A DNA stretch of 46,753 bases from Crenothrix polyspora. GTDB taxonomy: Bacteria > Pseudomonadota > Gammaproteobacteria > Methylococcales > Methylomonadaceae. The notes beneath the pieces were generated by a model, which worked only from the letters and a program-made list of their open reading frames with translations, was not told where the DNA came from and ran no database searches. This document shows positions 980-3,688 of this stretch, in pieces. The translations under genes were made by a program, and so were the position numbers. Numbering within the stretch: the stretch's first letter is position 1; each line of letters begins with the position of its first letter. The stretch is taken from assembly GCA_945902915.1 (NCBI GenBank), contig CAMDNJ010000004.1, positions 1-46,753 of the forward strand, written 5' to 3'.

Positions 980-1198
980 ATGGCAAAAGTACAAAAATCA
1001 ACTGATTCTTCTAGCTTAGCTGAAGTTGTTGACCGTATTCTTGATAAAGGTATCGTTGTAGATGCTTGGATTAAAGTTTCATTAGTAGGTATCGAACTGT
1101 TGTCTATTGAAGCACGCGTAGTTATTGCTTCTGTAGAAACCTATCTGAAGTACGCTGAAGCGATTGGTCTTACCGCCAGCGCTGCAACTCCAGCATAA
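980..1198 (+). CDS. gvpA: Gas vesicle major shell protein GvpA, first copy
   Basis: This 72-residue protein is the main hydrophobic subunit that assembles into the ribbed wall of the gas vesicle. It has the family's near-invariant core: [19 protein letters not shown], then the VSLVGIEL and [18 protein letters not shown] segments. The start at 980 is chosen because GGAGAG at 969-974 precedes it with normal spacing and the next gene has the same start; an upstream in-frame ATG at 938 would add 14 residues absent from the second copy. The first gene of the rightward operon, it follows the sigma-54 promoter and is followed by a stem-loop. Confidence 0.97.
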
Positions 1199-1291: not shown

Positions 1292-1510
1292 ATGGCAAAA
1301 GTACAAAAATCAACTGATTCTTCTAGCTTAGCTGAAGTTGTCGATCGTATCCTTGACAAAGGTATCGTTGTAGATGCTTGGATTAAGGTTTCATTAGTAG
1401 GTATTGAACTGCTGTCTATTGAAGCACGCGTAGTTATTGCTTCTGTAGAAACCTATCTGAAGTACGCTGAAGCGATTGGTCTTACCGCCAGCGCTGCAAC
1501 TCCAGCGTAA
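1292..1510 (+). CDS. gvpA: Gas vesicle major shell protein GvpA, second identical copy
   Basis: The 72-residue product is identical in sequence to the protein at 980-1198. The two genes differ at only about eight positions, all silent (for example GTTGAC versus GTCGAT), and even the leader TTTTTTGGAGAG-TATC is repeated. This indicates a recent tandem duplication or gene conversion, and raises the dosage of the shell subunit. A second stem-loop follows at 1530-1555. The start is set by GGAGAG at 1281-1286. Confidence 0.97.
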
Positions 1511-1626: not shown

Positions 1627-2115
1627 ATGGGACGCTTAACAAATGATATGGCTAGATTACGGAGAGAAATTGACAACCATCATAATTCCCGTCGAGAAGG
1701 TATAAGATCACGCGCTTCGAGTGTGAGTGCTCAACTTGCAAATTTTAAATTGATTCGTGTTACTAATGGCTCTCTTGAAGCTAGTGATCGAGCGGCATTC
1801 GTGGCTGGAAATAACAACAGCGTTAATCGCTTGATCAAAGGCTTTCATACTTCACGTGTAGCAATGGGGCAACAAGACCGCATGGATCGTGCCGCTTTCG
1901 TTTCTGGTTTGGCTAAGCAAACTGCAGGTATGCTGACGCAGTTTGGCGCTGATCACAAAAGAATGACCCAACATACTGCTAGTGTAAGGGCAAGTTTTAT
2001 AGTTGAGAATGCTGCCAGTGTTGCCACCTTGATTAATGAATTTGCACAAGATCGGGCGAATGCTCACGCTGAGTTTTTTAGTGCTTCTGTAAAAAAAAAA
2101 GCATACGCAATTTAG
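1627..2115 (+). CDS. gvpC: Gas vesicle outer-surface protein GvpC (with 33-residue repeats)
   Basis: GvpC binds the outside of the GvpA shell and strengthens it. The 162-residue product shows the family's 33-residue periodicity: RAAFVAG begins at residue 55, RAAFVSG at 88 and RASFIVE at 121, exactly 33 apart, and each unit continues with a predicted amphipathic helix. AAGGAGG precedes the ATG. The frame ends shortly after an A10 run (2091-2100); one base of slippage would join it to a further 65 open codons ending at 2297, so the annotated stop may not be the only end. It sits in the usual gvpC position between gvpA and gvpN. Confidence 0.85.
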   Translation: MGRLTNDMARLRREIDNHHNSRREGIRSRASSVSAQLANFKLIRVTNGSLEASDRAAFVAGNNNSVNRLIKGFHTSRVAMGQQDRMDRAAFVSGLAKQTAGMLTQFGADHKRMTQHTASVRASFIVENAASVATLINEFAQDRANAHAEFFSASVKKKAYAI

Positions 2116-2297
2116 CCACGCCTCGTTTTGACGAAGTTTCCACCGCGAACGTAGCCGTCAGTGAGCCGCATTTTGAGCCCACAATAGGGGTAGAGGTTGT
2201 ACAGTCAGAGTCGCATACTGGGATTTCAGATGTCTTTAAGGTTGCGGCGAATGGTCTTCTTCATTCGATAGAAAAATCAAAACCCAAAAAACGATGA
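2100..2297 (+). other. Frame-shifted C-terminal extension of gvpC
   Basis: In the -1 frame relative to gvpC, 65 codons run without interruption from the A10 run to TGA at 2295-2297. They encode a tail such as LATPRFDEVSTANVAVSEP and ending in EKSKPKKR. There is no start codon or ribosome site of its own, so it can only be made by ribosomal frameshifting, RNA polymerase slippage at the A-run, or if one A is missing from the assembly. A fused product would be about 223 residues. Confidence 0.5.
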
Positions 2298-2689: not shown

Positions 2690-3688
2690 ATGATTAAGAA
2701 AAATACCCTTTCCAGTACAAATTACGCCGTCGAAGACGATCTAATCGTGCCTGAAGCGAGCGATCAATTTGTAGTGACCTCCTATGTCAAAGAGATTATG
2801 GATCGTGCTTTAGTTTACTTGAAAGTCGGTTACCCAGTTCATTTTGCTGGGCCATCCGGCACAGGCAAAACCACTTTGGCTTTTCATCTCGCCACACAAT
2901 GGGGTCGCCCAGTAACCTTGCTACAAGGCAATGAAGAATTTGTGAGCTCTGATTTAACAGGGAAAGACATCGGTTATCGTAAGAGCAGTGTAGTCGATAA
3001 TTACATACACTCAGTTCTTAAAACTGAAGAACAGATGAGTCGTACTTGGGTTGATAACCGATTAACTACTGCTTGTCGAAACGGAGACTTGCTGATCTAT
3101 GATGAATTCAATCGATCAAAGGCTGAAACCAATAACGTGCTACTGTCCGTTTTATCCGAGGGCATATTGAATTTGCCAGGTTTACGCGGTGCGGGTGAAG
3201 GATATCTTGATGTACATCCTAATTTTCGCGCTATTTTCACCTCTAATCCAGAAGAATATGCGGGGACTCATAAGACCCAAGATGCGCTAATGGATCGAAT
3301 GATAACCATTAATGTTGGTCATCCTGATCGTGATACCGAATTAAAGATAGTGCATGCTCGTTCTGAACTTGATTTACAAGAAGCCGCTTACATAGTCGAT
3401 ATTGTTAATGAGTTGCGTGGTAACGACATTCAGACTAAGCATGGGTTGCGCGCAGGCATAGCCATTGCTCGTATTCTCAGCCTACAAGGATTAAAGCCGC
3501 GTATGGGCGACAAGTTATTTCATAACATTTGTTATGATGTATTGAGTATGGAAACTGCAAAAATACAACGCGCTGGACAATCGGTCTTCCACGAAATGAT
3601 CGATGACGTTATTCGTCAAATCTGCCCACCAATAGGCGCGGCGGTATCGGCTAAGAAATTTCCCACTAAGATCAAAGTAGCGGAGTAA
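2690..3688 (+). CDS. gvpN: Gas vesicle AAA+ ATPase GvpN (MoxR-like)
   Basis: GvpN is an AAA+ ATPase needed for normal gas vesicle growth. The 332-residue product has Walker A GPSGTGKT at residues 54-61, Walker B LLIYDEF at 134-140 with the following NRSKAE, and an arginine-rich sensor region (DALMDRMITI). These match the MoxR/GvpN group. The start at 2690 is preferred over an upstream frame start at 2666 because AGGAG at 2680-2684 sits five bases before it and MIKKN begins as usual for the family. The gene is followed after 6 bases by gvpV. Confidence 0.95.
   Translation: MIKKNTLSSTNYAVEDDLIVPEASDQFVVTSYVKEIMDRALVYLKVGYPVHFAGPSGTGKTTLAFHLATQWGRPVTLLQGNEEFVSSDLTGKDIGYRKSSVVDNYIHSVLKTEEQMSRTWVDNRLTTACRNGDLLIYDEFNRSKAETNNVLLSVLSEGILNLPGLRGAGEGYLDVHPNFRAIFTSNPEEYAGTHKTQDALMDRMITINVGHPDRDTELKIVHARSELDLQEAAYIVDIVNELRGNDIQTKHGLRAGIAIARILSLQGLKPRMGDKLFHNICYDVLSMETAKIQRAGQSVFHEMIDDVIRQICPPIGAAVSAKKFPTKIKVAE

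Follow-up and report, generated by a model that had tools for sequence, protein, structure and literature searches.

Transcriptional slippage at the A11 run of tssM1 in Citrobacter rodentium generates approximately 20 % long product, while tssM3 of Yersinia pseudotuberculosis shows the reverse arrangement (PMC4256274). An A9 run likewise serves as a slippage site in dnaX of Thermus thermophilus, and selection against slippage becomes apparent in a large share of genomes once runs reach nine A or T residues, according to the available part of the same source (PMC1088944). For spa13 of Shigella, the extended product is reported to amount to 25–30 % (PMC5009743). Gas vesicles and gvp genes are absent from the available main text of a survey of prokaryotic frame transitions (PMC3711429), and no earlier report of recoding in gas-vesicle genes was found in the open-access literature.

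The gas-vesicle protein GvpC confers an approximately threefold higher collapse pressure in Serratia (PMC4982088), and also in Anabaena. It sets this property in other organisms as well and has been engineered to alter the ultrasound contrast of vesicles, while the C-terminal part of the haloarchaeal protein binds several other Gvp proteins (PMC9501494, as far as available). Methylobacter psychrophilus is reported to increase its production of gas vesicles when grown at the warmer end of a range of 7 to 20 degrees (PMC12810054). The gvpC gene of Crenothrix polyspora described here carries an A10 run just ahead of its stop codon. Judging from comparative sequence evidence, it is probably a programmed two-product gene, in which slippage of RNA polymerase would yield a short and a long GvpC, with -1 ribosomal frameshifting representing the main rival explanation.

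The gvp cluster and the A10 site in the window

The window, which is the whole stretch of 46,753 nucleotides that was analysed, contains the beginning of a gas-vesicle gene cluster, with two gvpA copies, gvpC and a gvpN-like gene. The following features were distinguished:

980..1198, forward strand: gvpA copy 1, major vesicle shell protein (Gas_vesicle domain match at 1013-1129; ATG and stop present)
1292..1510, forward strand: gvpA copy 2 (PF00741, E 4.9e-17)
1627..2115, forward strand: gvpC, 0-frame short form of 162 aa with 33-residue repeats (open reading frame; self-similarity; position between gvpA and the gvpN-like gene)
2091..2100, forward strand: uninterrupted A10, the putative slippery run (counterpart of A9-A12 in 20/20 family copies)
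2113..2115, forward strand: 0-frame stop TAG, four codons past the A10 (read from the sequence)
2100..2297, forward strand: C-terminal tail of 65 codons and a TGA, read in the -1 frame, with an acidic first part and a basic end (predicted long GvpC of 223 aa)
2690..3688, forward strand: gvpN-like AAA ATPase (AAA_5, E 3.6e-17), which we take to be GvpN on the basis of its position

The protein encoded at 1627..2115 is identified as GvpC by the position of its gene, which adjoins gvpA within the cluster and lies 5' of the gvpN-like gene, and by its self-similarity, with self-identity peaks at a lag of 33 (21 %) and a lag of 66 residues. This assignment is made despite no Pfam or NCBIfam GvpC model matching the protein (E up to 1). 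The TIGR02641 model reached 9.9 bits, below its cut-off of 18.8, on one copy from a sister family (L016). A sequence search for a solved structure of a relative gave one match, differently named and with an E value of 0.05, and no such structure was found. Two further observations concern the region ahead of the genes. Six tandem TTAC units are present upstream of gvpA (804-827), possibly forming a repeat of variable length in the promoter region of the cluster, while positions 2-130, just upstream of the cluster, hold a remnant which presumably derives from the end of an IS-type transposase.

In the 0 frame the site is read as GTA AAA AAA AAA GCA TAC GCA ATT TAG, which closes the protein at 162 aa. 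The -1 frame, KKKSIRNLATPRFDEV..., remains open to the TGA at 2295-2297, for 65 codons past the three lysine codons, such that a one-base slip at the A10 gives a GvpC of 223 aa, while the +1 frame ends at 167 aa. The first-pass annotation of this DNA had described the run, a stop four codons further on, the open neighbouring frame and the lengths of both forms, all of which are confirmed by the reading frames. On its own, the window tail is mildly unusual, with an equivalent frame staying open in 5.5 % of dinucleotide shuffles. The case is stronger than chance because relatives share the run, the stop and the -1 tail (20/20 family copies).

The gvpC site across Methylococcales

The family to which the window belongs (f1) has as its named members methanotrophs of the order Methylococcales. 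A single-sequence search with the window GvpC gave matches in 16/151 genomes, its own included, while a profile built from eleven relatives identified gvpC in 19/237 genomes of the family (20 copies) and in 25/311 genomes of the order. By comparison, gvpA is present in 33/311 genomes of the order, eight of which gave no match to the GvpC profile (G003, G024, G055 and G222 in the window's family; G093, G112, G149 and G299 in other families), perhaps owing to contig ends or to a GvpC of another kind. In a class-wide sample, 1/369 genomes matched, this being the window's own genome. The window GvpC alone found no relative among the named genomes, but the family alignment did so, giving 22 named loci. 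Twelve of these were read, while the remaining ten (L040, L042, L044-L047, L049, L050, L052 and L053) lie on contigs that match in length those from which copies had been taken. The 20 family copies span six genera, and their 3' ends could be read in all cases, while the 5' end of the G293 copy is missing. They include the named strains Methylobacter psychrophilus Z-0021 and M. tundripaludum OWC-G53F, as well as a genome consisting of a single 4.8 Mb contig (G018). As the protein bodies of G022b and G014, and those of G261 and G023, are identical, eighteen distinct bodies are represented. The metagenome bin G022 contains two gvpC copies (L026 and L038), one with the G014-identical body; this bin is 7 % contaminated and may be a mixture.

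The run, the early stop and the tail in the -1 frame can be read directly from these genes, as can their conservation and a frame relation that holds throughout the family. All 20 family copies hold a pure A run of at least nine residues within the coding region, with uninterrupted lengths of A9 (three copies), A10 (thirteen), A11 (one) and A12 (three). The 0-frame stop follows two to five codons past the last AAA codon in 20/20 copies and is TAG in nineteen and TGA in one. Furthermore, the tetranucleotide TAGC, which spans the Ile/Leu-Ala codons of the -1 frame, occurs in 18/20 copies. The -1 tail extends over 58–83 codons in all 20, counted from the first codon lying wholly past the run (64 in the window), and the +1 frame closes early wherever it was inspected. 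The charge distribution of the tail is likewise shared, being negative before the last 20 residues and net positive within them in 20/20 copies, which extends to the family the basic tail end noted in the first-pass annotation.

Runs of this length are infrequent in these genomes. The gvpC run is the sole A or T run of at least nine residues in the 46.7 kb window, and one of seven A10 runs on both strands of the 2.7 Mb assembly to which it belongs. Mechanical calling on a 400 kb sample of G018 gave 301.5 kb of open reading frames, which contain six A9 runs, one of them that of gvpC, and no longer A run. A10 matches in the 24 other carriers range from a single one, the gvpC run itself, in the approximately 4.8 Mb of G169, to 82 overlapping matches in G292. 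Within gvpC, another Lys-Lys site incorporates A runs of just three to eight residues. AAG accounts for 19/107 lysine codons in the gene body and 36/170 in the tail, while those within the run are all AAA, as is implied by its being uninterrupted.

Of the six other A10 runs in the genome from which the window derives, three lie in open reading frames (L092, L093 and L094), at the very end of two of these, which we take to be xerC and queG from their resemblance, and near the start of the third; slippage in the first two would change the last residues only. On the minus strand at C68:1100-4100 (L095), another of the six is found in frame and late in a gene which we assume from its sequence to be dnaX. 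As in Thermus dnaX, both slipped frames of L095 stop soon after the run, although the stops in L095 sit near the normal end of the gene.

Several comparisons bear on whether the tail is coding. No stops occur in the -1 frame of the tail region of the 20 family copies, versus 2–9 and 2–12 in the other two frames. The shuffle odds per copy range from 0.003 to 0.084, with a product of approximately 1e-22.7 over twelve representatives, which are not fully independent as they share ancestry. When each lineage was left out in turn, its tail outscored all 999 of its shuffles, under the tail profile built from the others, in 10/11 lineages. The window tail passed narrowly (8.9 bits versus 8.3 for the best shuffle), while that of G196 was no better than its shuffles (218/999 as high). 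The tails of separate lineages thus resemble one another, as regards the comparison with relatives that the first-pass annotation had proposed. The dN/dS ratio of the tail was obtained for ten differing pairs, some of which overlap. It is weakly below one in nine of them (0.27–0.83), and the remaining pair differs by two synonymous changes and nothing else. An excess of changes at third positions is not significant in the tail (33/32/44 by codon position over five pairs; p 0.30), while the differences in the gene body number 34/23/81 (p about 1e-9). This pattern would be expected of a tail that is under loose constraint and probably disordered, but it is weak proof of coding.

The site is also present, in a different phase, in a sister family (f4; six genomes in one genus, with the G131 copy truncated at its 5' end). 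An A10-A11 run occurs at the equivalent place in 6/6 copies, with the tail in the 0 frame, and both slipped frames close within 4–19 residues of the run, although wrong frames also close soon by chance. As the tail of this family is already in frame, slippage would there shorten GvpC. The sister-family proteins are longer, those of L016, L015, L062, L063 and L065 being about twice as long at roughly 350–370 aa, apparently through the incorporation of more 33-residue repeats. The AlphaFold prediction of their natural, in-frame long GvpC is poor (mean pLDDT 46; approximately 28–35 in the tail), which fits a flexible tail but is no evidence for one. Profile homology between the tail of the window's family and the in-frame tail of the sister family is not significant, and the link suggested between the two is limited to their position and to a short P-x-I/V-A stretch. 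Among five distant homologues of other lineages (L056-L060), no A run of eight or more was observed in the frames inspected.

In the GvpC tree, the split between the two families is fully supported. On a tree of both families, the fewest changes comprise one in frame, between the families, and four in run length. Within the window's family there were at least three changes of run length and none of the frame relation. The window copy has the longest end branch in the tree, with the run and frame kept, and its exact placement is unsure as long branches meet there. From these patterns, the A run appears either to be older than the split of both families or to have arisen in each, and the predicted default product differs between them.

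Source of the proposed frame change

Most gvpC transcripts would be expected to keep the templated number of A residues and to give the short GvpC, which ends a few codons past the run. RNA polymerase would slip on the A10, leaving a fraction of the mRNAs with one additional A (or with two fewer), and these altered mRNAs would be read into the -1 frame to give the long GvpC, the tail of which, acidic and then basic at its end, is probably flexible. We infer that the frame change does occur, and mainly during transcription. The slippage-dependent C-terminal extension suggested by the first-pass annotation is thereby supported at the level of comparative sequence, with the run, early stop and -1 tail recurring throughout the family.

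Slippage on unaltered mRNA by the ribosome, at the A_AAA_AAA heptamer within the run, would likewise give the long form, and this programmed -1 frameshifting is considered an unlikely, albeit the most serious, alternative. The heptamer is in phase in 20/20 family copies, each with at least three in-frame AAA codons, and the available part of one source mentions, for IS elements, a proven A_AAA_AAA cluster (PMC4066793). Single-sequence, pseudoknot-free folds of the 70 downstream bases of the 20 copies gave z values from +1.07 to -3.31 (mean -0.96), with a slight lean to structure. A stable fold is found in four of these (G014, G022b, G028 and G027; z -2.3 to -3.3), the first three of which form one clade, while that of the window itself has a z of +0.7. 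No consensus fold was detected in the 100 downstream bases of twelve representatives, although the divergent alignment makes this a weak test. Among the 40 bases upstream, three copies contain an SD-like motif, a GGAG that starts at -9 (G018) or -29 (G261 and G023). None of the motifs sought occurs in the other 17/20 copies, and in no copy does such a motif start 10–14 nt 5' of the run. Considering the four folds with z below -2, ribosomal slippage may also take place on the run and supplement that of the polymerase. Polymerase slippage is favoured because nine to twelve pure A residues have been kept where the ribosomal heptamer needs seven, though about one fifth of the lysine codons are AAG, and because no conserved SD-like stimulator or consensus downstream fold was found. 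A hairpin just upstream of the run, potentially favouring slippage, could be drawn in G011, G032 and G033, but is neither general nor significant.

Phase variation, decay of the tail, re-initiation and assembly error were also considered and were rejected on the comparative evidence. Long homopolymers mutate and lengths of 9–12 occur here, as might be expected of a contingency locus where slippage during DNA replication toggles the long form between cells. Such a switch should, however, show mixed phases among genomes, whereas 20/20 family copies are in one phase (default short), 6/6 sister-family copies are in the other, and the changes in run length preserved the frame, making this very unlikely. 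The weak selection on the tail and its lack of a significant third-position excess would agree with an old frameshift having truncated GvpC and left the -1 frame as a non-functional remnant; nevertheless, a frame that is open in 20/20 copies over deep divergence, tails that retain similarity in 10/11 held-out lineages and an invariably positive tail end render decay highly improbable. The tail could alternatively be a separate small protein translated by re-initiation past the 0-frame stop, which its open reading frame overlaps. This is exceedingly improbable, with no ATG, GTG or TTG present in the whole tail of the window and G033, nor in the first seven tail codons of the other 18 copies. 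Finally, an A lost or gained in the assembly was the plain alternative offered by the first-pass annotation, and homopolymers are error-prone on some sequencing platforms. The probability of such an error is negligible, as it is contradicted by an identical frame relation in 19 genomes, including those of two named strains and one assembled as a single 4.8 Mb contig.

Possible coat composition and comparison with described systems

As the C-terminal part of haloarchaeal GvpC binds other Gvp proteins, a tailed minority could hold contacts that are absent from a stiffening majority. It is speculated that the tail might serve, for instance, to bring a set minority of GvpC into contact with other Gvp proteins or neighbouring vesicles, and it is hypothesised, as in the first-pass annotation, that the mixture of short and long GvpC tunes vesicle strength. 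A broader and tentative suggestion, with somewhat less than even expectation, is that the vesicle coat of those Methylococcales that bear gas vesicles is a hard-wired combination of tailed and tail-less GvpC in a ratio set by the A run. The default would be tail-less in the window's family and the reverse in the sister family, and both forms would be needed at a set ratio for assembly, strength or clustering.

If slippage does occur, gvpC would represent a case of recoding in a gas-vesicle gene, with a site conserved across a methane-oxidising family, and ordinary gene calling would miss the GvpC tail, which constitutes 65 of the 223 residues in the window. Given the role of GvpC in collapse pressure, a natural two-form coat would be directly testable and could be useful. 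Furthermore, the opposite defaults of two related families would offer a clean natural comparison for the evolution of slippage sites.

The methanotroph protein shares its 33-residue repeats with the GvpC of Anabaena, and its position in the gvp cluster and presumed outer stiffening role with those of Anabaena, Serratia 39006 and Halobacterium; no mention of a frameshift was found for these three proteins in the available text of the sources (PMC9501494, PMC4982088). Among known slippage genes, dnaX of T. thermophilus resembles gvpC in having a pure A run late in the gene and two products, with the long form as default, like the sister family and unlike the window's family. The extended products of Shigella spa13 and mxiE require slippage, as is proposed for gvpC in the window, but these are secretion genes in which slippage has an effect on how the following gene is expressed as well, and the mxiE run is U in the RNA (all three genes as described in the available parts of PMC1088944 and PMC5009743). 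The closest parallel is provided by tssM, which differs from gvpC in the protein and organelle concerned. Both C. rodentium tssM1 and Y. pseudotuberculosis tssM3 are chromosomal structural genes that carry a poly-A run close to an early stop and give two length variants, as is proposed for gvpC (PMC4256274). Slippage in tssM1 is proven on RNA and both forms are needed; the authors found the tssM poly-A site in just one further gene, going by the available text, while the gvpC site is family-wide (PMC4256274). Slippage yields the long form of TssM in one relative and the short form in the other (PMC4256274), and the same opposition is predicted for the two gvpC families.
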